From positions 24,537-88,536 of the forward strand of contig JAJIRX010000830.1 in assembly GCA_023853785.1 (NCBI GenBank): a DNA stretch of 64,000 nt. The letters run 5' to 3'. Positions within the stretch are counted from its first letter, which is position 1. Each line of letters begins with the position of its first letter. The position numbers and the translations under genes were made by a program. Positions 4,078 to 43,812 of the stretch are shown one piece after another. The notes below the pieces were generated by a model. That model saw nothing but the letters and a program-made list of their open reading frames with translations. It ran no database searches and had not been told where the DNA came from. Source of the stretch: Psilocybe azurescens. Lineage: Eukaryota > Basidiomycota > Agaricomycetes > Agaricales > Agrocybaceae.

Positions 4078-4277
4078 ATATCCGAAGTATGATCATTAGT
4101 TATTAATATTAATTGCAAAAATAAAAGAGTAAAATCAATGGAAATAAACTCTATGAAATAACAATTAAATGAAACAATAGTTAAATTAACATGGGAGCAA
4201 AGCCTCCCTATAGATACATTTTTGTATTCTGTTCAGTCCGTGGGATGAAATTTCACAGGCACATGTGACATGCACAT

Positions 4278-5060
4278 GTGCCTGGCATCGCCAATTGGCA
4301 CAACAACAATCAAATGAACATGTCCGTCAGACCCCACCCTTTCTTCCAACTACCACCACCACCACCTTGTTGGTTGGAGCCAGGCGACAGCCAACCCAAC
4401 GCGACAGAGGATGACAACGACCACGACGGCCATGCCAACAACAATGACAAAACGAGAACGGGGGCAACAGCTGCGACAACGACAAGGATGGGGATGGCAG
4501 CTGCGACAGCGACGAGGACGGACAGGATGAGGATGAGGACAGGGACAGGGACAATGGCTGCGACAACAATGAGGACAGGGACGGCGGCTGCAACAGCGAC
4601 AAGGATGGGTACGGCAGCTGCAACAGCGACGGGTATGGACACATACAACGACAGCAGCTATGACAACAACAATGCAGAAGACAGCAATGGGTACAAGGAC
4701 AACATGGACAACACGTACAAAGGCAACAACAATGAGAACGGAGACAATGGCAGTGACAGCAATGAGGGCAACGAGAACGGAGACAATGGCTGCGACAGTG
4801 ATGAGGGTGACAGCAACAGGTATGAGGATGGCAAGGATGGCAGCTGCAATGAGGACAAGCACGGCAGCTGCGAGGCTGCGACAGCAATGAGGATGCAAAC
4901 GACAGCGACAGGTACCAACAGGTATGAGGGAAGGCAGCTGCGCCAGCGACAACAAGGGCAAAGATGACGCAGATGGCAGTTGCAAAGACAACACAGACGG
5001 TGGCTGTGAAGACAACAATGAAGGGTACAACATGTACTGACAACCTGACGGACGACGCGT
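4278..5060. repeat. low-complexity GACAAC/GACGAGGAC-type repeat, copy A
   Basis: A degenerate tandem of GAC, AAC, GAG and GGC triplets (for example GGCAGCTGCGACAGCGAC) leaves long open frames on both strands: Asn/Asp/Gly- or Thr/Ala-rich on the plus strand, Val/Ala- or Cys/Pro-rich on the minus. This is what triplet repeats produce, and I do not call a protein. The first ~100 bp (4335-4410: CCACCCCACC..., CCACCACCACC, GGAGCCAGGC...CCAACCC) matches the start of the similar block at 11.94-12.04 kb, so the two are members of one repeat family. Confidence 0.75.
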
Positions 5061-5576
5061 TGAACTACATAGTGTGTGATTTGATATATAAATCGAAAAC
5101 CAAAACACAAACCAGAGAGGAATGGTCTAGACTAGATAAGACGACTCTCTCCCTGTTGAGTTAAAGTGAGGGCTGGCTTTGCCACTAGGTTGTGTAGATG
5201 TATGTGGTCTGAGGAGGGCAGGGACGTATGAAGGAGGAGGAATGGATCAGGGAATATAAAATGCCCTTGAGTATTTACTGGGAGGAAGCAACCCAACTTG
5301 ATTAGGGTAGAACGGTGTGAACGAAGAGTGATGACTGTGGAAGGGCCAAATGACTAGATAAATTGTAGGGATTGATATGGGGGCAGGAGTGAGAATGTAG
5401 TCTTGATCCTAGTGCGCTTCAAGCAAGTCTGCAGTGTCTGCAAAGCTAGAAGTAAAGCCTGCTGGTGGAGTAATGGCTTGAGCGGCCTGGAGTGATAAAT
5501 GATGAAGGATTGTGCGATGTTTTTGATCCAAACCTCAAACAGAACAGTGAGGTGAATGAGGGATGACTAGGGCGAT
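5061..5576. other. no gene recognised
   Basis: No coding pattern, RNA or clear terminal repeats. From about 5509 a ~75 bp unit (GCGATRTT...TGATCCAAA...) appears twice in diverged form, leading into the next repeat. Confidence 0.5.
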
Positions 5577-6829
5577 CGAAGGTGACGACCTAGCGATATT
5601 CTTCATCCAAAAAATCAAAAAACACAGTGAAGCCGGATAAAGGGTGTCTGGAGCGATGGATGAAGATGACAACAAGACCAAAATTGCTGAATAAAATATT
5701 CCGGAGCAACTGAAGCGATGGGGAGTTGAAGATCTTGATGTAGAGGAAGAATGAAGGGTCTGGAGGATGGTAGGATCGAAATGAACTGGACAAAATTCTC
5801 TGTGATGAGAGAACGAGAGTGGTTGGATAGGCTGGTCTAGCCTCTGATGAACGTCTTGAATAACTGGAGTGATTGTTGAATTTCGTGCTGAATATTGATA
5901 GAGATTGATTGAATGCGTGCTTGGAGTGCTGGACTGAGTACTTGATAACTTGAAATCTTTGCTGTGAAGAAAGTTGGGGCTTGTAACTTCCTTGTATTCC
6001 AAGCGATACTAATACATGGTTTATATACCAGAGAACATAGAAAAATATTTAAAAGAGATCAAGCGTCCAAACTATACTAATCATTCTGTAGAACGACACC
6101 CAGTAGTCCCATCTGTCAACTACATACAATAGATTGAAAGCTGATGGAGTTTAGGAGTGAAAAATAGAAGGATGAGTAAGTAAGTAACATAGGATGAGTA
6201 AGAAGTATAAGCAGGATTATGAAAAGCGAAGTGAGATGAGTAAGAAAGAAGCGAAGCTGAGTAAGTACAATAAGCAAGAATGACAAAAGGAAGGAAGGAT
6301 TAATCATATGAAAGTGTCAGACAATAGAAAAGGAGCCAAAATAGCGAACAAGTACCATGCTAATGAATAGAACCAGTCTATTCATGGCACAGCTCAGTCA
6401 TCCATTACCAAGACTGCTGAGTGAGACAAAGATTTGCTGCATATGTGGAATCTAGTTAAGGACCAAATAGTTGTAGATGACCAAATGCTGATGACGATGG
6501 TGATATATGATGCTGTGCAGTGCAGTGCATACTAGGATGGATAGGAATGATGTCCAAGAATAATCTCGCGCATAGCCTTGAGGTTCGAAATAGATAGACG
6601 ATTTAATCATTGATAGGGAATGTAGCTGATCAAATGGTTGAAGTGGAGATTGAAAGTTGGAATGGAGCTTGAAGTGGACTGTGAATGGGCTTTGACATTG
6701 AATATTGAGGATGTGCTTCAGATAAAAATGCAAAATAATAACCCTGGCTTCTGCATGCAATGGGAGTCAAGACAGATGCTCTAAGCTTATAGATAAATCT
6801 CATATCCAATCAAAATTGGTGTATGACAG
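5577..6829. repeat. unnamed interspersed repeat, copy 1
   Basis: About 1.25 kb that recurs in the same orientation as copy 2 (7206-7314 plus 8453-9451). The best-matched part, 5930-6829 against 8560-9451, is nearly identical over about 900 bp, and both copies end at the same bases (GTGTATGACAG). No coding motifs, no TG...CA ends and no transposase were seen, so its class is unknown. Confidence 0.85.
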
Positions 6830-29746: not shown

Positions 29747-30198
29747 CACATAGGGAAGTTACATTGTAGCGAGTGACTCGGTCCATAGAACGCTTACAAT
29801 GTATACGAGTCACTCGATGCCAATGAATTCTATGGAAAGCATTTATACCTAATAGAGTAATGGACCATACAATATAGCAGCTGATTCAGTGCTACGAATG
29901 TATACATATAAGCATGCTGCTACCCATCTCGGGCTACGACCATTAAAGTTGTCGGGTCGGCCCCGTCTATCTCGGTCAATTGCCGACATAAAATATGTAT
30001 TGCATTGTGCTACGTTAGCTATCATGAGAAGCAACATATGCCACTTTTTAAAAGTATTTCGTAAAATTTGCGTATGTTACTACATTATTATTAAGCTCAA
30101 GCTGCTACTAAAATTCCGAGATCGGCCCCGATGTCTATCTGCCGGTCGACCTTCTACTTTAATACGGCTCGGGCCCGATATTACACACCCCGTTACCA
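29747..30198 (+). repeat. left TIR of the KDZ element
   Basis: Inverted copy of 43353-43804 with about 5% differences by eye. It holds two interlocked inverted repeats near the tip: CGAGTGACTCG (29770) with CGAGTCACTCG (29806), and TACATTGTA (29760) with TACAATGTA (29795). It also carries three CGG-N2-CCG sites. The open frame seen in both TIRs is not a gene. Confidence 0.95.
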
Positions 30199-30650
30199 CG
30201 TTTAGTAAAAATGTGTATTGAAAAATAACTACATATAGCACACAAGTCATTGAACAGAGAAATTGTTCTAAACGGAAGCGGGTTGCGGCCGAACAAATTT
30301 GCGGTCGGCCACGATAATTGTCGGCCTAAATAGCGAATTGCACCACATTGTTCGAACATAAGTCAACGACATTAATGACTTCTCGAAATTGATGTCATCT
30401 ATTTCTATATGTAAGACTTTGTTACCCAACTCGGGGAGCGGCCGGTCAAACGATGATATCGGCCCCGTAGGGAATCAACCATGTGTTGACCACAATGGTC
30501 TGTTGAGCTGAGAATATATTCAGTATATATGTGCTGTGCAGTGAAGTAGGCCAATAAAATTTCTGATGAGCTACATATAAGCTTTAAATTGGTAGGCAGA
30601 CCGGTCGTGTAGATACAGTAGGCCTCGTAGAATGTCAGGTATGAAAATAT

Positions 30651-32790
30651 TTACAAAAGCATGTCATCGTCTTCGTCATCAACTGCAGACTGTCCTTCGC
30701 TGTCGGGATCCCTGTCATCTTCGTCAACTTGCAGCCAGGTGTGATCAACAAAATCAAAAAAAGAAGGTGAAAAAGGACGACGAGGGAGAGTAATTCTGGT
30801 GGGGGTCACAGAGTGTACTCCAGTATCTGCCTGAACCGCGCTAGTCAAAGATTCAACACGGGAGCCGCGTCGATCAGCTGACGGGGCCGTTAAGCAATTA
30901 GTAGATTCATCATCATCAGAAGAATACCAAGCACCGGCAACATTGGCCGCGCCGACAGGAGACGTGAAAGAATTGGAAGGAATACTGGTACGCCGTGAAT
31001 AAGTGCTCAGGAGTGGTATATCATCCTCATCACTGTCCGTAGAATCCGACCACACACCGGCCGCTTCGGCAACCCCAACTAAACGTTCATTCCCCGGCTT
31101 CGCAGGCCTTGCGAGAGAAACATCGGCCATAGCTGGTGCATTTATGGAGGAGTTGGGTCCATCCGAAGCAAGATCATCGTCAGAAGAGATCGCCCATGTA
31201 GCAGCTAAAGTATTAGCATCGGTTGAATGTGGGTGTGCAGCTTCTTTGTTGTCAGATTCATCATCGGATGATTCCTCTAACCAGAGTGCAGCGGCCTGGG
31301 CAGCTAGGTATCGGGTTGTGTCAGCAACAGTTGTCTGACCCTCAGCATGAGGTTCAACAGCGTCATCACTGGAGACAGAGGATAGGTTCCACATTGCGGC
31401 AGCGTCTGCGGCCGTGCTCACGAATGTTAAATTCGGCGCCGACATTTCTGCAATTGGCACCGAAGTGAGTGGGGCAACCGGTCCCGACACTGAAGTGTTG
31501 ATGGATGCGGATGACAAATTGGCAAGATTTTCATGCGGGGAAACAGTTTCTGCTGAGCTCCAAGTAGTCGTTCTTACGTTGGGTAGTGGATCAAGGCAGT
31601 CGGGAATAGAACGGGTGTGGACGCTGTTTGGCGAGTCGGCTCCGATGGCCGACACTGCAACTGATTCCGCAGAAGATACATGATTGGTTGAAGAGTCTTG
31701 TCGACGGCGACGACCATCGGGTAGCGATTGTGAGTAGCCAGAGTGAGGAATTTCCCGAATATTGGGGTCTTCTGCGAGAGCCTTCAGGTCACTCGGGGTA
31801 AGTTCTGCTCCCCACGTCCATTTTTGAGAAGATATCGGAAGGGATAAAAGATCAGAAAATTGTTCAGCCGCATTCATCGCCATCCGCCTCGACCGACGCG
31901 TAATCAAAATGTTGTCAATGGTGTCAGGATATAACTTAGTGGTCGCTCGCCGGTACGGGCCCGTTGCCGATCGCGTGGCGGAATCTTCATCGCCCTGCGC
32001 AGGATCGCCCGTTTGTTGTTCTTTCAAGACAACCGCTTCATGTACTTGATGGAAACCGGCTGCCCGCCTCATGTTCAAATCGCTATCGGCATCGGCATGT
32101 ACGTGAGCGGCCTGCGCTGCGTTCGAAACGGCCATAAGGTCTTCGCGCAATTCTAGTGCTAGATTAAGATAACTTTTGCAGCGGTCGCAAGATGGCGACG
32201 GCACCGATGTAGGCGGGCGCGGCCCCAGCGTCTCGGTCACAATGTCTCGCAGTTGATAAGTTGCGTGAGTTCGAAGGGCATCTTTGATTATAAAGCTATT
32301 CAGCGTATATTTCATTGATACTTCATCGTCGCTATGCCACCAATCATTCAAGTAATTGTCGACTAGGCGAACTGGACTGTCTTTATCTACACCGGCATCC
32401 AATAAAGCTTGGAAATTGTCGGAGAATTTGACTGGATAATGTTCATACGGAATGTGAACTAGCGAAGCCGCTAACGACCGAACAATAATGGGAATCGTGA
32501 CCGAAAGGCCGAGTGCCGATGCCCGGCCAATAAAAGACAAGACCAATTCCTATATCGATGTCGGGTGAAAATAAATACCACAAGTTAAATTCATTACATA
32601 CGACCTCAGCGCACAGGAAGTGTTGTTTCCACTCCTGTTGGTCAATAGGTGACACGGCGATGACAAGAAGTGCTGCCCGAAATCTTGACTCAGCATAATA
32701 TACCAGTTCTTGTATGTCGGCGTGGATTGAATAGTGAGCGCCAGTCAAAGTAGTAAGTGGGTTGAACACTACAAATTCTTGGTTGGACAT
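30651..32790 (-). CDS. acidic protein with five AAxxAxxW..SSDD repeats, encoded behind the KDZ transposase
   Basis: Exon 1 begins ATG at 32790 (MSNQEFVVFNPLTT); an intron from GTATGT (about 32601) to TATAG (about 32553) joins in phase to a 630-codon second exon ending at 30651. The N-terminal third looks globular and contains CDRCKSYLNLALELREDL (a CxxC). The rest is Ser/Asp-rich and disordered. Five spaced copies of a motif, small residues then Trp then SSDD, occur at about 31412-31360, 31320-31250, 31220-31170, 31074-31020 and 30954-30900; examples are AAQAAALWLEESSDD and AANVAGAWYSSDD. The tail is also acidic. The gene starts 60 bp after the transposase stop, same strand. Family not recognised. 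The repeated Trp/acidic motif suggests a multivalent docking segment. Confidence 0.7.
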
Positions 32791-32850
32791 GATCGATTGA
32801 GTTCAAGATGAGTGTGAATAGATAATCGATCACAATATAAAATTACATAA

Positions 32851-35800
32851 TCAAATGAATGGAGACACATAACGTTTGCAACTATTTTTAAACGCAAGAT
32901 CGGCACCGACCGCATACTTGTGCCACATTCGACTTTGCCGAAAAGCGTAGGCTTTCGGGCCCGAATTGATATTTGCCGTGTCCGATACTTTTGCCCACTC
33001 TTCTCGGCGATGAATGAAATATCGGACAGTCCATAACATTTCATACTCGACTAAGACAATTTCTTCATTCCACCTATTTTTTGTGCCCGAGCGCGCAGCC
33101 AGTGGACGCGGTTGACTGTAAAAAAGTTTGTCATTATCGGTATATTGCAGAAACGAACATTCGATTTACATTCATTTTGAAATCGTTGTTGAGCGTCGGG
33201 CCCGTTCAAACGATCGGTATCGGCAGCGGCCCCACTGTTATTTAGCAAATGCCAACGACCAGTCATCCATATCCATGGCAATTCAATTTTGGATGAACCG
33301 GGCACATTGGGCTTCCAAATAGCGGTGCTTGGCTTCAGATCGTTACATGTGAGCTCCCGAAATATGTTGAGGAACTCATGTTCGCATTTAAGGGCGATGA
33401 GTCGGGACCGACATGCCGAGTATATACGAGCGTGTAGGATTTTAGCATGATTCAGTGATTTCACTTTTTCTGACCATCATTCCGAATGCTTGTACGGTTT
33501 CCGGTGCGGACAACGTAGCGATATAGAAATGAGATGTCGGCCACAATATCCCGAATACGCCTGATATTGTTTCGAGCTTGATTTTTCCTTAATTCTAGTT
33601 CTGCACTGGCGAACCTTTGGGGAACATTGAAATTGGAAGGAAGAGACAGTGTTTGCCGTTCGGGAAATATGGTAGTTGAAGTCGATTCTGTACGGCTGTC
33701 CGCAGTAGGCCGCTCACTTGCATCGGGCCCGTGTCGGCCATCTTGATCGTCATCATCGAATTCGGCCTCATCTTGGAAATTTACCAGGTCAAAGCTACGC
33801 GCAATATCGGGCACTTTGGCCGCTTGCTGCAACTGTTTAATCTGCCCAAACATTGAGGTAAGTACTTGGCGCAGTTGACTGACTACCTGACGGTCTTGTT
33901 CCAGTGGTGCTGTCCCAAGCCGACGAACTTTGTCTTGTAATTCTAATCTAATTCAAAAATCAGTGTCGGGTATCAATGCCATTTTACATACAACACACTG
34001 TTTTTCTTCGACTTGTAAAGTAAATCGTAGCCAGGTATTCAGCGGACAATCAGTGTCGGTGTCGGTGCCGGTGTCGGTGACTGGCTCATCGGTCAACGAA
34101 TGCGGCATTCGGGCACCATAGATATCCATGCGCTTAATGTCGACAGGGCGCATTGCTTCGACACTTTGAATTTCGTCTTCCCATTCATTAAGTATTGACG
34201 GATCAATGTCTCCAGATAGTTCTATGAAATAAGAGTTGGCCTGGCCGACCATAATAATTGCATCTGCATATCTGATGCAAAGAACTTGCGTAATTCCGAG
34301 CATTTTTTGTAGTTGGAATCCGCAGTGTGGTCGTCGAGTACTTCTTCCCTGTGCGCCAGACTTGCTGTCCGGACCGAAGATGAAATTGCGTTTAGGTTTG
34401 ACCACAGTGATTCAAGAATTTGGCCTGCGACTATTGCAGCACCAGGAACAAAAGTTGTTGCATAGCGAAAGAAACAAACATCCTTGTGGCCATGAACATG
34501 GAATAAGTCAATAGCCTGGTCAATATTTAGGCCAGCTGGGATCATATGACCGATTCGGTCAAAAAGATACACAATCCATGTGCAGACGATGTCGTATATG
34601 AGAAGTAACCCTTGTTCAGGTTCAACATGAGTTGACTTGATAGCCTGCAGTAACGCATAATCAATATTCTTTTGCTGCTCCCCCCTGAACAGGTCGGCCA
34701 ATGTATTGGGTGCAAAGCACCCATGACGAGCACATGCAAAGGCCACCTTGCCTGTCCTGTCACATGCTTTTGTCGACAGTAATGCGTTCATAATGGCTTT
34801 GAATGTATTTTCACAAGGTGCTTTCTGCAGGGTATCGGTCAGTCACATTGTCTCGGCCAAAGATCGGCCCCAAAACCGACATACTGTTAATCGGTCGACG
34901 GCAGATTCTAAGAAAGCTTGATAATGATCACGGTTGGGGGCCATGCCGGCCCCATCAATCAACCAGACGTCGTCATTACATTTTTGCCGAACATGGTCGG
35001 CTTTGAAATTGCCATCGGTGACAAAAATACGTTTGTATACAGATCTGTACTAAAATATGGTTATATCTGAATTCCTATATTTGTGAATTACACTAACCGA
35101 TTGGGATCGTTCTTCCAATCATCGGGCAAGTTTATACCAGGTTGAGGGCAGGTCGGGCAATACAGAGATAATGAGCCAGCTGGTGGGTTGCGAGGATCTT
35201 CTTGTTTGTGTCCATAGCCGGCCCATCGTAATTTTTTAGCCATCGCCAAAGACGTGACATTCGGCGGAATTCATGATATAAATTCACAATGTCGGCCCGC
35301 CCGATCGGCATTGTCATTCTTCGGATAAGAACGTAGAATTGGTAGGCCGATGCTTTCAGCTCCAGATTGAATAAGCGAAATTGATCCATTAGCTGTACGG
35401 AGAAGAGAGTCTGTATCCTTGTAAAGCTGGCTGGGAGAAGACGGCAGGAAACCAAATCCAATGGGACCGAGTGTTCACCTCGGCAATGACAAGTTACCAT
35501 GGCCATGTAATGAATACCATTAGTGTGAAGAATTCTTACATATGTGTTGTTTAAACCATCGGCTGATGGGACATTTGGCTGTACCCAGGGATTGTTGAAT
35601 TCATTTTGATGCTGAGCGTTATCGGCCCCACTGACCGACTCTTCTTCGGCCAAATTACCTTCATCCATGTCCGTTTCTAAATAAGGGCCGAAATCTTCAA
35701 CATCGGCCTCGGGATCGTCGCCGTCCAAATCGTCGGCCGTATGTTCTTCGACATAATCCTGACCGTCTTCGTGAAAACTTTTGTAGCACTGATTCAGAAA

Positions 35801-36669
35801 AAGAAAAGCTTTTTCATCGCCGCGTTGATCCGAACCCCAGTCTGTTGCCCCTGTAGGATTTGAATTATCATGGTCGAATGGGTGGGAGGCCGACATATCG
35901 GCGAACGTTTTTGTCTAGTCGGCCCCGATTCGGTTGCAGCCTGCATCGTATTTAGTTTTTCCTGTTCCCGTCTGTCTGGATGTCGCTGTAACGATTCCAA
36001 GTGATTGATTTGAAATTGGAGGGAGTCGCATATCGCTAGGCCAGAACGGTGTGGAACCAACACATAGCAGCCAACTTCCCATAACTCAGCTCTGCGGAAG
36101 TGGGTTTCCGCCCAGCATTCAATTCTATGAAAAGGAGCAGACTGGTGGGAATGTCTCATGCATTTCGCGACAGACAGGTTCTGAAAGTGTACAATCAATA
36201 CATCTCCATATCGCCCAGAAGCCAGCTGAACAGGATCGGCAATGTTGCTTGTCCGCCGGCCAAGATTCTCGCACCAGTGATGCTTGCAGTAAGTCTTCTA
36301 TTCTGTCGACCCATTCTCTCATGTATTCTTTTGGGTCTGAGAAAGCACTGTATCAGCATTTATCTAACCAATTTGATAATCAGTTACCTTCGTTTTTCTG
36401 CGGCGGGGCATATTCAAAAGGTCGGGAATGCTTCCACCGTCAGTGTATATATTTTGATTCACTGATTGATCCCTGAGATCTGCCGGGTCATTTGACATAC
36501 TATTCTCTGTTATGGTGGAAACTAGAGGGACAAAAATTCTTCTTTGAGCTCTGGGACCACTGAAGACATCGGAGAGATGGGTAACGGCCTGAGAGGCTTC
36601 AACACTTCCTTGAACCAGATGTTTTGACTTTCTTTGCCTTTTATTCGCTGGGCCGCTTGAAGAGTTCAT
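32851..36669 (-). pseudogene. KDZ transposase with cysteine cluster, frameshifted
   Basis: Start chosen at 36669 (MNSSSGPANKRQRK), the usual short basic N-terminus. Next: RRRKTK, an intron, YMREWVDRIEDLLQ, the CxC cluster (CRSC..WRCIDC..PVCREC and HxxHQSAPFHRIECW), THFRRAELWEVGCYVLVPH, NTYVRILHTNGIH, RLLPASFTRIQTLFSVQ, LELKASAYQFYVLIRRMT, LYHEFRRMSRLWRW, CPTCPQPGINLPDDW, VTDGNFKADHVRQK, then CARHGCFAPN.LADLFRGEQQKNIDYAL, IYDIVC, LFHVHGHKD.CFFRYAT, ILESLWSNLN, LAHREEVLDDH, and a C-terminal coiled and RxR-rich part (RNNIRRIRDIVADISFLYRYVVR, EMLWTVRYFIHRREEW). These are the KDZ signatures with the RNase H-like catalytic region. One-base shifts lie near 36165, 35915, 35215, 34330 and 33070, several in A runs. 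Confidence 0.93.
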
Positions 36670-36854
36670 GGTGTGAAGATGAGAGTCATATATACATCGC
36701 TTTAGCATGTAGCTGAGTACGAAATAATGCACATGAGGGTTCCATGAGGCGTGCAGGCAAAGATCTCACCGTGCCAATGCTTCTTAATTCATGACCACCC
36801 CCATCACCGTTTTATTTTCCATTCTTCCGTTTCCAATCATATTTCACAAACGAC
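36670..36854. promoter_or_regulatory. shared promoter region of two divergent genes in the KDZ element
   Basis: 185 bp lie between the transposase start (minus) and the earliest ATG of the plus-strand gene. A TATATA (36692-36697) faces the transposase. No CGG-N2-CCG site lies in it. Confidence 0.4.
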
Positions 36855-38939
36855 ATGGCTACCGCAATCACATTGCAAAGCAAAAACGCAGACCAAAGAT
36901 GTTCAATTCAGAAGAACTCCAACAAATTCTACCTTTCAAAGAATCCTTTGTAAATGCCCGGACAGTCAAAGAACGTCTCTCCATCTTGACAAATCGCATA
37001 TTGGTGGCAATATTTAATTACTGGGACAGCCAGGGAAAAAGGGCAACGGATGACCTTGAGAGTCGCCGTTGGACACAGGTATGGATATATAAACTCATTC
37101 CGCATCTTTCTGAATATGGTTCAGGCAGTCATCACCTGGTGCTCGAATAATTGGAGGGCAGACAGAGGAATTGCTCGCAAGTCCAACCATTTTCGACCAA
37201 AGAGACCTGACGTCCTCTGGCATAATCATCAGGCGATGGTTTGGGCAGAAATTGCCAATATCATGGGGATCGAAAAAGCGTCCGCCGACACATTTGGTTG
37301 GTTCAGATATCGGACAGCGGCGATAAAGAACATTTGGACACGCATGACTGAGGGTGAACGCAAGGCTATTGACAATGAGGTAGACATGTGCGCAATGAAA
37401 GGGTACAATGAACACACACAAGCAAGGTCAGTAAGTCGGCACCGATTCCATGACATATCCTAACTGCATTTAAGTCTGGCGAAGAAATATCACGTCAAGA
37501 GGATTGATCAATCAATGAAAGATCAGTATAATGAGATGGGGATGACGAGTGTGATTTTTGTCTGCTTTCCACTGCCTGACGGCAAGATAGCAGTCGATGG
37601 GTACGTGAATGACCGACTACCATCATATAGAAATCGGGCCGCATACCTTCGGCCGAGATTATCTCGGGGCCGACGACTGTTTGCGGCCGGTATATATCGA
37701 TCTAGTACGCAGACAACGACTGACGTAGTTTTAGGTACGAGCAAATTCGCGAACTTGATGAATGTCCCGGCCCAATCGTTCATGAGTATATATAAGGCCG
37801 ACATCGACCGGATGAAACAAAATATATTGGATTATATGACCGGGTTGCAAAATCTCAAGAAAAACGGACACTTAGCGTTCACAGTCAACAGAACTCCGAC
37901 TAAGAAACCAATATTCACATTTGGCAACACAACCAGTGGTTTCCCAATCATACCTATTCCCTTGCCAGACAAAAATTGGACCAAAAGTGATTTGGAAGAT
38001 GTCTTTAGCTTATATGTGAAGAATCATTACAGTGAGTACCATCAGCGATATACCGGGCCCGACACATATGACTGTTTGGTAGGACTCGCTACCGGCGGCA
38101 TAACGGACAAGGTGCCGTACACCGAGATCGGAAAGAATCAGCAAACTTTTATCCCCTCAAAATATCTGCCGTTAAACATGAAGTTCGCAAATCCCAGAAA
38201 TCTTCATAAAGAAGATATACAAGCATTTTTGCACATTTAGTGCACCGGCAGCAAATATATCAACCACAGGACACATTTAGGTTCCGTTGCATTAAGCATA
38301 AACATGGGCCGGTGCCGACAAGATATCCAGATGACCAGCCGGTGGCCAACCGGGCCCGACGTAAACCGGGTCATAAGGATGGAAACGGAGGAAAACATAA
38401 AGAACGACTTCCTATCGAAGAAATTGACTCCACAGTATCGGTCCTTCCATCCACAGATCAATCCTCAACGACACCGGCCCCCGACCGATCACGGGGCCGA
38501 GCTGACACAACAAAATCACCAACATCCGGAATGGGAAAATGTCGCCATCAACAGACAAGCCACGACATCCACTATCAGTCAGCGCTTGGTATATGTCACT
38601 CAAGATGTCATGGAGCGCATGTATCCTGCTGGCATGGAATACCCACTACCGGTCAATGGTCCAGCCGACGGTATGCCTATGTATTTGGTTGATTCCACTG
38701 AATATGCAGGATATTGTGCAACACAAAGTGAAGGGAATCATCATATCGTAGCCCAAGGTTTACATCATATTTCGGATTCTCAAATTGATTCTACCTTACT
38801 GGGTGCCACCATGCCAACACCAAGGGCAACACCTATGCCAGGGCCAACTGTTTGCTATACACAATCCCCAAATACCAGTGTTGTGCCAAGTAGTTTGAAG
38901 AAAGTAAAACAAAAAAAAGGTTACATTCAATGGTATTGA
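36855..38939 (+). CDS. KDZ-element cargo gene of unknown function, divergent from the transposase
   Basis: Start is either 36855 (MATAITLQSK, which needs a one-base shift near 36897) or 36899 (MFNSEELQQILPF). Exon 1 ends at 37078; intron 37079-37124; exon 2 (AVITWCSNNWRADRG..., HNHQAMVWAEIANIMGIEKA..) to 37426; intron 37427-37474 with branch site CTAAC; then exon 3. Exon 3 holds MGMTSVIFVCFPLPDGKIAVDGY, AFTVNRTPTKKPIFTF, PIIPIPLPDKNWTKSDLEDVFSLYVKNHY, FIPSKYLPLN and, after a one-base loss in a T run near 38229, VHRQQIYQPQDTFRF. A disordered tail ends at 38939 after another frame change near 38350. No catalytic motif is recognised. I believe similar proteins accompany KDZ transposases in mushrooms, but this is from memory of motifs only. 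Confidence 0.6.
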
Positions 38940-39132
38940 AATAGCCTCTGCAGTGATATCAGCTCCAAAGTCACTGCGAAGGAGCGCTTCGGAATAAATG
39001 ACCAGCCCCAAACCAAGTCTTCCACCGAGGACCAAACAAAGTCAATAGTTATCGAGAATGAGACTATTATACTACAATAAAAAAAATATATACATGTGTC
39101 CCCAACATGCTATAGAGCTTAAGACTACATTA

Positions 39133-42030
39133 TCAAAGACGAGCCTTTTTATTTTTTCCCGCGGTGGCTGAACTCTGAGCGCGTGGACGTTTGCCCGAAT
39201 GCCCCGGAGTGGGGCTGCGCGACATTGTTCTTGAAGGGCTGGGAGATGCAAGACGAGGCGAACGACGAAGGTCAGCAATATCTCGGTCATGTACGAGTGG
39301 TGGAGCAAGAAGAGAGGCCGACGGAATAACAAGCAGAGATGACGGGGCCGGTTGAGGAATGTCAGAGCCGAGTGTATGCGGCCCCGAGGTCGGCGACGTG
39401 ACCTGAGTCGGATTAACGGTGGTCGAGCAAGAAGAATCCAACGCGGGGCTGGGGTGAGAAATGAAAGAGTCGGTATCGTTCGGCCCCGATGTTAACAACG
39501 TACGAAGAATCGGCTCAGCGGCAACCGATTTGGTCGGGTCCGACACGGGGTTGTGCTGTTCAGATACAATGATGTCTAAAATATTTGCCCCCGACGTTGA
39601 TGATTCACCGGGAACTGTTTTGTGGCCGATGGTATTCGGCCCCCGACGTGAGCGGCGGGGGGAAAAAGTAGGCTGTGCGGCAGTCAATCCAGTTGGGTCT
39701 GAGACGCCCGTCGGTTTGTTGAGAAGCAACGGGGCCGATATTGGTCAGCCCGAAGTTGACGATTCACCTGGATTTTTTTTTTGCAGCGACTGAATCGATG
39801 GAGTCCAATGCGATTTCGCTCGGCCCCGATGGCTGCGAAGCAACATTCTTCTCCTCTGACCGACCATCTACGTTTTCCGATAGCGGGGTACAACTTGGAA
39901 GAAGTGGTTTCTGCTGGCGGTTGTGCTGATTGCACAGATATTGGGATGGGTTCCATAGGGGTGCCATCAACAATCATTATGGTGCTATAAGAAGCCTGCT
40001 CCTGTGAGTTATTCGGTGTTGGAGGAATTAATTGGATAGATGGTACAATGGTTGAACGAACCGACGAAAGGTCTAACTGCTGTCCTTTGGCCGCATCGTG
40101 TTCTGACCAAATAGTTTCGGTGCCAACTGGGGCAGCAGCCCCTCAGCAGAATTCGGGGCCGCGTACATCGGGTTCGTGACGTCGTCCGGAGTTGTTGGTA
40201 TCGGGGCCGATGATTGATAGTCAACTACTTGGCCGGTCGCCGAATTATCCATAAACGGCACCGACTGTTGAGTAGTCGGCCCCGACCGAAGGCGTTCCTT
40301 CAGTTCAGTTTGAATTTCTTCGTCGACCTGCATTTCTACTGTCAGCCCATACGGCCGAGCGATCGCTTGACCTCCCACAGGAAGTAAGGTGCCTTGAATG
40401 GAACGTAAGACTTGCATAATGTCCAAATACCTGTCCTCGAAGTGTGTCAATTTCTCGAAGACATTGTCGATCTTCCTCTCCAGCTGAGTAACACGATCGC
40501 CGAGTTTAGCATTCGGCCCATGAGCTGCAGATTGCTCCATTTGGGCGCAGGCCTCGTTGCAGTCGTATACCATCAACAAGGCAGTGGACGCAGTGGTTGT
40601 CGCAGTGACCACTTTAGAGGTCAGAGCGTCAACACGAGCTACAAGGTCTTCATCATCATTATCTTCGCCCATAGCTTGAAGAAAATTTAAGGTCGATATC
40701 TATTTTTTAAAGTAATGTACACACCACGATGTTTCCCTTTTTCCAATGTTGAAAATCGCGGTGCACAATCTTCGTCGGTCACGGCCGACTCAACATTCAA
40801 CGGCCGACCGGACGTTCCAGCAGGCTGATGTTGCTCTGTAGATTTGGGCAGACGCCGACGTCGAGGTTTTCGACGTATGACCGTTGGTACTTCGCCGTCA
40901 TTATCACCATCACGCTTGTCGATGGCTGACTGATCTTCACGAGCTCGCATAACGGCTGGTGGATGTTTCATCCGCTGATTCCTCGATCTTGATCGGCTGC
41001 GTATCGCATTCGATACACCACCGGGCCCGAGACTGCATTTCACCTTCTGCCGGCTACATCGATAACACGCTCCTCGGCCACGGGCCCGGTCATAACAGTC
41101 TGCCTGTGCTTTGATGCATCGGTCGCATGATTCCCTGTTCAATCGGCCCTGTTCAGGCTGCGGCCGAACCTTTTCATCTTCTTCGTGACCCGCACTATCG
41201 ATGGGTGAAATTTCACGTTCAGAATTACTTTCTGAACTGGATTTCTGTCCTCGGTACGACATGTCATCCGCCGCACCACGTCGGCCCTGAGTGAACACCT
41301 GGCGGCCATGATCTCGAGGCACTCTCAGTACCGGTATAACACCTTTCGGAAAGACAAATGGTTGAAGTTCGGGGGTGGATGGCACCTCGGGAATCTTTTC
41401 TGGATGAATCTGTACGTTCTGTGGTGATAGTGTTCGGGCGGGCGGCGACTGACGCAGTGAATCGACTACGTCCTGCTGGAGTGACGGTGATCTAGTCCTT
41501 GACGACGGACGCCGAGAATGAGCCATACGTTCCTCAGCTCCTCCAGAACGCATCGTTAATTCAGAGTTGTTCGCTTTCCCATACTGTATAGTGGGTAAAT
41601 GCAATTTTTCCGACGGAAGCTCTTTTTCTTTGCTACTTAAGAGTGGCCGTGGGATCGGGGCCGATATCGTATTATCGAAGGTCGCCATGTTACGAAGATG
41701 TTGCTGTAGAAAATCTTCTGTACGACCAACCTGTTTGACCTCTTTCCAAGCTTTCAAAAACCCCCAAAAAAACAATGGAATGTCAAAAATCGGCCGCAAA
41801 TGTGCGATCTCGGCGCCGGTCATTCCTTGGAGGACGAATATTTCATGCTGCAAAATTCATTGCTATCTTAAAATATGTATGATATTCTCATTACTCACCA
41901 ACTTTCCCTTCATTTCCTTAATTTTCGATGAAACGGTTCCGCTGGCCAATCCGCTGCGGACATAATTATCTAAATTGCGAAGAGTTTGCTCGAGCTCGGT
42001 CGCAGATGGAATAACAATGCCATTGGACAT
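39133..42030 (-). CDS. Zn2Cys6-cluster protein with coiled coil, KDZ-element cargo
   Basis: Exon 1 42030-41899 (MSNGIVIPSATELEQTLRNLDNYVRSGLASG...), intron 41898-41848 (GTGAGT...TTTGCAG), exon 2 41847-40735, intron 40734-40675, exon 3 from 40674. Exon 2 encodes a helical segment (HEIFVLQGMTGAEIAHLRPIF...), a basic Ser/Pro-rich linker, then a cysteine array around 41131-41037. Its spacing, CX2CX6CX9CX2CX6C, is that of Gal4-type Zn(II)2Cys6 DNA-binding domains, with basic flanks. Exon 3 has a coiled coil (LVARVDALTSKVV, RVTQLERKIDNVFEKLTHFEDRY) and a long disordered Pro/Ser/Thr region to a stop near 39133. One frame change lies near 40085. The coiled coil suggests a dimer, as expected for recognition of inverted CGG triplets. 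Function inferred: element-encoded DNA-binding protein. Confidence 0.7.
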
Positions 42031-42255
42031 GGTTGTTGTGGTTTTCTGAAATTTGTAGTAGAAGTTGATGCTCGGGGGCGAGTCGGCTGAGGACTAAAGA
42101 AGGAGACTGGTAAAGATAATATAAATGTCCGTTGGATTCGAAATCAACACACACGTGATCTAAACAGTGACAAACAATACACGAACTCGGGCGCGACGTT
42201 ATCTGCGGCAATCTTTCCAAACATATCGTATTCTGATCCCCCGAAAACAGAACAT
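42031..42255. promoter_or_regulatory. shared promoter region of the second divergent gene pair in the KDZ element
   Basis: 225 bp between the Zn2Cys6 gene (minus) and the plus-strand gene at 42256. No perfect CGG-N2-CCG site, only near matches (for example CTCGGGCGCGA at 42185). Confidence 0.35.
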
Positions 42256-43196
42256 ATGGAGCCTGTTATACAAGATACAATCTCCAACCTCGCGGAATCG
42301 ACGCTACCTGACACCACCCATAGTACATCTGTTGGACCACTTCATGGGTACCGCTTAAATGGCCAACCGCCCGGTGCTGTAGAGGCTCCCGCAACCTGCG
42401 AAAGAGGTGACATTCGGCCTCAGCCGACTATCAGCCTGCCTGTTGGTTTTACCTCATTGCCCGGGCCCGATGGCAACACGATTTACGTTCCAGAATTCTT
42501 AGTTTCCACTGCACACAAAGAATTCACCGTGGCGCGGCAAAGAGCAGAGCTTCAACTTGAAAAAAAGTCAAGGTGGTGTAAGTTTTTTCATTTTTCTAAT
42601 TTGGACGATAGGAGAAATGTAGGGTATATGTAGATCGGTGCCCATAGTAGTCCTGTGTCGTTGCCGGCCGTTAGATCGGAGCCGATTACAATCGGTCTCG
42701 TCGGTGTCGGTTACATTCAGCGGGGCCGACAATTTTCCCATGTTGATTTAATCGGCTTCATATCTCGGGGCCGGTTTTATTTAAACCACAATATTTGCGG
42801 GTAATGTTTTACATTCAAATCTGTACCCTGTTCAACATCCGAGCTACTTTCTCTGTCTTTCACTGTTCATTGTTCCTTTTGCTCACTCATTTTACAGTCT
42901 CAAAATAGCACTGGACGAAATTTTGTCATTCTTGGAAATAGGGTGTTGGTCCCAGCCGACCCGGTAAGCTGAAATGTAGTACGAGGCAAATAGCAATTAA
43001 TATAAATTTTTAGCATTTAACCGAACGTGAACTCCTTCAGATAGATACTGAGGTCCATTATCTCTGCCACACACTTGGCATATCCTACAAGGACGCCAGC
43101 CACCGGCTTTACATCTCCGAGTGGGAGAAGCTTAAGGCAAATGACTCAGCCAAAAGATATTTATGGAGCTTGATAAGCAAAGTTCTCGAGCTATAG
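42256..43196 (+). CDS. short KDZ-element cargo gene of unknown function
   Basis: Exon 1 from ATG 42256 (MEPVIQDTISNLAESTL...) carries a PTISLPVGFTSLPGPDGNTIYVPEFLVSTAHKEF segment and a helical end (ARQRAELQLEKKS). A long intron-like stretch (42580-42897) holds five CGG-N2-CCG sites. A middle exon (42898 to about 42961: NFVILGNRVLVPADP) splices by GTAAGC...TTTTTAG to the last exon, HLTERELLQIDTEVHYLCHTLGISYKDASHRLYISEWEKLK, stop at 43194-43196. The phase between exons 1 and 2 does not fit without a one-base change, possibly in the seven-A run at 42560. No domain recognised; small, soluble, probably helical. Confidence 0.55.
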
Positions 43197-43352
43197 AGAA
43201 ATTTGACCACAAATTAATGGCTCTCTCAACCGATCTTTCGGCTGACCAGCCGCATATGGTGGAATGATTTGTAGTTCTTATGATTTATCTACACCATATG
43301 TACACCATAATAAATATAAATGCACATTTGTTTGTATATTTTAATACAAAAC

Positions 43353-43804
43353 TGGTAACGGGGGTATGTAATATCGGGCCCGAGCCGTATTAAGGTAGAA
43401 AGATGACCGGCATATAAACATCGGGGCCGATCTCGGAATTTTATTAGCAGCTTGAGCTCAACAATAATGTGGTAACATACGCAAATTCTACGAAATACTT
43501 TCAAAAGGTGGCATATGTTGCTTCTCATGATAGCTAACGTAGCACAATGCAATACATATTTTATGTCGGCAATTGACCGAGATAAACGGGGCCGACCCGA
43601 CAACTTTAATGGTCGTAGCCCGAGATGGGTAGCAGCATGCTTATATGTATACATTCGTAGCGCTGAATCAGCTGCTATATTGTATGGTCCATTACTCTAT
43701 TAGGTATAAATGCTTTCCATAGAATTCATTGGCATCGAGTGACTCGTATACATTGTAAGCGTTCTATGGACCGAGTCACTCGCTACAATGTAACTTCCCT
43801 ATGT
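43353..43804 (-). repeat. right TIR of the KDZ element
   Basis: Inverted copy of 29747-30198, ending CTTCCCTATGT, with the same two interlocked palindromes at its tip and three CGG-N2-CCG sites. Confidence 0.95.
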
Positions 43805-43812
43805 GACTCTAA
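43805..43812 (+). repeat. target site duplication, right (GACTCTAA)
   Basis: Same 8 bp as 29739-29746, directly after the right TIR. Confidence 0.9.

Follow-up and report, generated by a model that had tools for sequence, protein, structure and literature searches.

The window analysed here, a stretch of 64,000 nucleotides from the genome of Psilocybe azurescens (C714:24537-88536), carries at 29747-43805 a DNA transposon of the KDZ, Kyakuja-like type, over whose whole length are spread 45 sites of the form CGG-N2-CCG, 19 of them perfect TCGG-N2-CCGA. The terminal inverted repeats (TIRs) of the element, 480 bp long and 93% complementary, lie at 29747-30226 (+ strand) and 43326-43805 (- strand) and hold sites at 29958, 30123 and 30170 and at 43375, 43422 and 43587, respectively; the right end falls at 43805, one correction to an earlier reading of this DNA (the original prediction), which had placed it at 43804. 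The termini, CACATAGG..CTATGTG, are of the CA..TG type, and the 7-bp target site duplication (TSD) actctaa stands outside the left TIR. Among 14 elements (named by contig, C714 being that of the window) the 7-bp TSD is perfect in 13 and imperfect in C136. The transposase gene (33464-36765, - strand) has several exons and a CxC2 domain, and scores 130.8 bits with PF18758 and 61.8 bits with PF18803, both above the cut-off.

A second gene on the - strand, at 39136-42093, encodes a Zn2Cys6-like protein. Its parts are an N-terminal exon (41866-42093, with the ATG at 42030), a main open reading frame (ORF; 40690-41856), a next ORF that appears coiled-coil-like by eye (40076-40699) and a basic tail (39136-39744), and their conserved order suggests that they form a single gene. 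The six-cysteine cluster, CX2CX6C-X9-CX2CX6C, is encoded at 41035-41127 on the same strand. The other two genes, neither with a Pfam match, are a conserved one of unassigned function (36990-38936, + strand) and one for a conserved acidic protein (30651-32549, - strand), in which short repeated motifs W-x-SSDDD are visible by eye. All four genes, including the Zn2Cys6-like one that the original prediction assigned to the element, were matched in all four diverged lineages. No Rfam family reached its gathering score in the window between 29000 and 44500.

An array of CGG triplets two bases apart

The array is real, resembles a set of protein sites and is specific to a spacing of two bases. It had been estimated at about 43 sites with at least 18 perfect ones, close to the numbers counted, and 17 of 18 listed coordinates were exact, the remaining site lying at 33402 rather than 33412. 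Only one further site had been noticed in the other 50 kb of the window, where eight are present, one of them perfect. At all other spacings from 0 to 20, CGG-Nx-CCG occurs 1 to 13 times each within the element. Dinucleotide shuffles gave a mean of 2.65 and a maximum of 9 sites for the element (500 shuffles, against 45 observed), and a mean of 4.92 and a maximum of 11 for the flanks (200 shuffles, against 8 observed); such nulls were also run for nine further copies or lineages and controls. The claim of a spacing-specific array thus withstood both the matched nulls and the counts at other spacings. Moreover, in a count of all pairs of 3-mers separated by 0-20 bases, made independently of the motif in five copies, CGG-2-CCG came top in four (C714, C136, C454 and C529); in C323, led by a local repeat, it ranked fourth. 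The consensus is RTCGGSSCCGAY, and the middle bases are not free, as had been supposed, since 33 of the 45 sites have only G or C there. Half-sites are also in surplus in C714, where 27 of the 134 TCGG and 32 of the 112 CCGA belong to full sites.

Sites occur all along the body of the element, at random-like distances. Coding segments (9222 bp matched between lineages, with approximate exon limits and a slight overlap of two segments) contain 28 of the 45 sites and the remaining 4846 bp contain 17, a similar density. The widest gap (34063-35920) is located over the transposase, a region for which few sites are expected from synonymous-codon shuffles as well. A nucleosome-like phasing was considered and rejected, inter-site distances being non-periodic in the four lineages tried, with a gap variation slightly above random. 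Close runs of palindromes occur elsewhere, for example eight in a row, 21-25 bp apart, at L048:6899-7059, with similar runs in C33 and C92.

This array is maintained by selection. When synonymous codons of the coding segments were shuffled 1000 times, the mean was 6.5 and the maximum 15, against the 28 sites observed. In the four-lineage alignment, C136 agrees with C714 at 94% of the bases in the triplets of the C714 sites, compared with 72% for the flanks. Retention was likewise higher for N2 sites than for CGG dyads of other spacings, with 31 of 43 versus 24 of 55 between C714 and C136, 9 of 36 versus 1 of 45 between C714 and C454, and 16 of 38 versus 10 of 51 between C714 and C529; six one-sided Fisher tests gave p values of 0.0008-0.019, which share lineages and are not independent. 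Of the 117 site columns in the alignment, 71 are occupied in a single lineage and 5 in each of the four, indicating a turnover of individual sites with maintenance of their number. Finally, inserts nested in the copies are poor in sites, with none in 7828 bp (C447), none in 1943 bp (C136) and one in 2634 bp (C323).

The scan covered a single genome of 70 Mb in 937 contigs; as the copies within a family are related, its independent units are the four N2 lineages and one element with a spacing of three bases (N3) that were read, plus contigs known from match lists. Ten autonomous or partly read copies (C714, C323, C136, C454, C529, C447, C92, C33, C683 and C781) harbor 34-59 CGG-N2-CCG sites each, and each of the ten has the Zn2Cys6-like gene in whole or in part. 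Seven shorter elements share the TIR ends of the element and have no match to the C714 proteins. They carry instead a 155-bp unit whose consensus holds one palindrome, with 22 matches and 12 full sites in C549, 29 and 15 in C446, 24 and 12 in C580, 25 and 11 in C166, 21 and 4 in C220, 14 and 2 in C673, and 17 and 4 in C254. A repeat finder run on C446, C166 and C673 found oppositely oriented 155-bp arrays at both ends of each. With the same TIR ends as the full element, these seven look like derivatives mobilised in trans, and for elements devoid of these genes the sites apparently have, or once had, some importance in cis. The arrays may also have arisen simply by the tandem expansion of a segment on the TIR side; a search for the source of the unit within the autonomous copies gave matches of 17-28 bases only. 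The short derivatives (L042, L044, L046 and four others) are CpG-poor with decaying palindromes, and the fewest full sites are found in the three with the lowest observed-to-expected (o/e) ratio of CpG.

The Zn2Cys6-like protein and a second spacing

Gal4-type Zn2Cys6 factors combine a six-cysteine cluster with target sites of inverted CGG triplets at a fixed spacing. Both features recur here, and the six-cysteine pattern proposed for the element's protein is present, but the cluster does not appear to be of the plain Gal4 type: its halves seem swapped, it is encoded by a transposon and the sites lie in the element's own coding DNA. The pattern CX2CX6C-X-CX2CX6C is found in a single frame in four of the ten copies (C714, C323, C136 and C33) and also in a more distant element, C438. 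The cluster domain alone reaches 24.6 bits with Zn_clus, and 22.3 in the case of C33, as two half-matches, and in the Pfam alignment its second half falls on the first half of the profile. A profile search of the PDB matched the halves to Pho7 in swapped order (E 0.15). When the halves were exchanged, one stretch spanned Zn_clus profile positions 2-30, and scores rose from 24.2 to 26.8 bits for C714, from 24.5 to 26.3 for C33 and from 13.8 to 17.4 (below the cut-off of 21) for C438. These profile comparisons suggest a permuted cluster but, given the resemblance between the two halves, fall short of proving it. The C33 cluster also has a match to DUF3716 that is near-full-length but weak (E 0.5); on this family a literature search found no paper, and concerning permuted zinc clusters, nothing on point appeared among the literature matches listed. 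The window ORF has one homologue among 8000 candidates scored, from Psilocybe cyanescens (81%), and the C438 protein has two, both from the same species.

The C438 element (C438:669276-680634; L051, L049) is a distant KDZ transposon with 25 CGG-N3-CCG and a single CGG-N2-CCG in 11.5 kb, where shuffles gave a mean of 0.70 and a maximum of 3 N3 sites (200 shuffles). None of the 14 N3 sites of L049 falls inside its insert (4095-5674), which has 196-bp inverted repeats and is Tc1/mariner-like by eye. The six-cysteine protein of C438 is a homologue of the C714 one (tblastn E 3.5e-4) and is followed, by eye, by a coiled coil. A distant KDZ family with its own Zn2Cys6-like protein and another spacing suggests a self-recognition tag. 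Throughout the genome, pairs of sites 5-35 bp apart exceed the control, a reversed pattern, for N2 (390 versus 149) and N3 (295 versus 102), and not for N1 (33 versus 60) or N4 (39 versus 97). Where the first 50 listed pairs were located for each spacing, 47 of the N2 pairs lie in copies with a homologue of the zinc-cluster gene (C33, C79, C92 and C19), mostly of one subfamily, and 20 of the N3 pairs belong to three contigs that have a match to TET/JBP (C108, C215 and C241, the match of C241 being below the cut-off); at least four N3 pairs come from one unrelated repeat.

The genome has 15 TET/JBP matches, 11 of them above the cut-off, and two DNA methyltransferase matches, which makes DNA methylation plausible in this host. 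On C215 a weak Zn2Cys6 homologue (E 1.2e-4) lies 7.8 kb from the TET match, and one at about 8 kb is also present on C713, C547 and C548. No Zn2Cys6 homologue is found on C108 and C241 among the matches listed, and homologues at C642:49182 and C438:691094 have no listed TET match at that distance. Relatives of the C438 protein flank a KDZ match as two paralogues on C644, C547, C810, C643 and C438, and such paired Zn2Cys6-like paralogues might form heterodimers. Finally, the KDZ locus on C430 shows no array in the 4 kb read, where a single N2 site is the only CGG-Nx-CCG with x from 0 to 20, and no zinc-cluster homologue was found on this contig among the matches listed.

Proposed self-marking and its alternatives

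We propose, with a probability of about one half, that a dimer of the element-encoded Zn2Cys6-like protein marks the element's own DNA from end to end, most likely against silencing, or else so that the element can be mobilised; its binding to the sites, the dimer geometry and the anti-silencing role are what we infer. The protein would be a DNA-binding one, probably dimeric through its coiled coil, each subunit of which would read a CGG half-site with its cluster, and the dimer would recognise inverted half-sites two bases apart (RTCGG-SS-CCGAY). The address would be defined by the spacing and its specificity by how densely the sites cover the element, where selection keeps about 35-60 of them, some in exons, others in TIRs and non-coding DNA. 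The protein would thereby mark its own element and any derivatives sharing the sites, and, once bound, may shield them from silencing chromatin or methylation, leaving them open to the transposase, as VANC does. At least one other KDZ family would have shifted to spacing 3 and so acquired its own address. The presence of sites in exons and in gene-less derivatives argues for marking of the element rather than control of promoters.

Several observations weigh against this proposal. The cluster is split between frames or damaged in the other six of the ten copies, and the public gene model of the P. cyanescens homologue lacks it. The whole C714 ORF scores 18 bits, below the Zn_clus cut-off of 21, the C438 protein exceeds no Pfam cut-off (13.8 with Zn_clus), and an AlphaFold model of the cluster, made without an alignment, is poor (mean pLDDT 53). 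The link between protein and spacing comes from two families that were read, the N3 one through a single element, and no TET/JBP match was found in the element or on C714. A protection of CpG was considered and rejected, the CpG o/e of array elements being like that of their own inserts and low in C438. Elements with sites and without the gene do exist, namely the seven short ones, which nevertheless appear derivative.

The same protein on the same sites could instead be a transposition accessory that compacts or bridges the 14-kb element for the transposase to pair its ends. We regard this as a serious rival, if on balance rather unlikely, and anti-silencing as the most likely role. In C714 the TIR sites are nearly mirrored, at 212, 377 and 424 from one end and 211, 376 and 423 from the other, and the short derivatives keep theirs in repeat arrays towards both ends; yet body-wide sites at random-like distances show no concentration at the ends, and in C529 and C92 just one site each comes within 700 bp of an end. 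It is improbable that another product of the element, the KDZ/CxC2 transposase or the + strand protein, binds the sites with the Zn2Cys6-like protein as a bystander: these two genes are likewise conserved in all four lineages, but inverted CGG triplets at a fixed spacing are the signature of Zn2Cys6 dimers, and the C430 locus has a KDZ domain without an array in 4 kb.

Zn2Cys6 proteins are usually transcription factors, which would fit an ordinary autoregulation of the genes in the element, the excess of sites being due to drift. Such autoregulation is nonetheless quite improbable, as the sites in coding segments exceed a codon-matched null, retention between lineages is general, and sites persist in derivatives without detected element genes. 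An origin from composition, codon bias or repeat expansion, with no binding at all, is hardly credible. CpG o/e is indeed higher within the element than in its flanks, and C529 sites cluster at short distances; against this stand the dinucleotide, codon and other-spacing nulls, the site-poor nested inserts and the preferential retention of N2 sites over matched dyads.

The sites of TnpA, the protein of maize Spm, are subterminal. TnpA belongs to another superfamily and is a different protein. It shares with the protein proposed here that it is encoded by the element and is tied to demethylation of its own element (PMC10398659). The closest known system to the self-marking proposed here is VANC of the Arabidopsis VANDAL elements, an element-encoded protein with a short motif that is dense in its own element and differs among related elements, and with an element-wide loss of methylation (PMC5735166, PMC10398659). 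Related elements with different motifs have their counterpart here in the N2 and N3 families, and motif-bearing tandem repeats, also present in VANDAL, occur here only in the short derivatives. VANDAL elements are MULE-like elements of plants with an unrelated protein, their motifs are mainly non-coding while coding segments hold 28 of the 45 sites here, and what would form the code here is how far apart the inverted triplets stand. Loss of methylation, shown for VANC, is a proposal for the present element.

The element shares the KDZ transposase, the 7-bp TSDs and the CA..TG ends with Kyakuja as described in PMC12730594, where two Laccaria families are said to lack TIRs, unlike the present element with its 480-bp TIRs; that absence is perhaps not a defining trait. 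KDZ transposons include TET/JBP-bearing ones (PMC12730594, PMC12810828), which differ from the present element in that no TET/JBP match was found in it. The words "zinc" and "transcription factor" are absent from the main text of PMC12730594, and no title or abstract among the matches listed deals with a Zn2Cys6 partner or a site array in KDZ elements. A more tentative extension, which we consider possible though doubtful, is that fungal KDZ families carry a spacing code, in which the half-swapped dimer encoded by each family would coat self DNA through matching CGG-Nx-CCG sites all along the body, exons among them, and distinguish it from host and rival elements, TET/JBP elements using an N3 address to aim their dioxygenase.

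There are few cases in which it is understood in detail how a transposon can act on its entire DNA and yet spare its host. The array would offer, in fungi, an address readable from the sequence, with natural variants at spacings 2 and 3 and with and without the gene. It also reveals a second signal that selection maintains within the genes of a transposon. The function of transposon-borne TET/JBP enzymes is said not to have been experimentally validated (PMC12730594), and a spacing address could explain how they find their targets.

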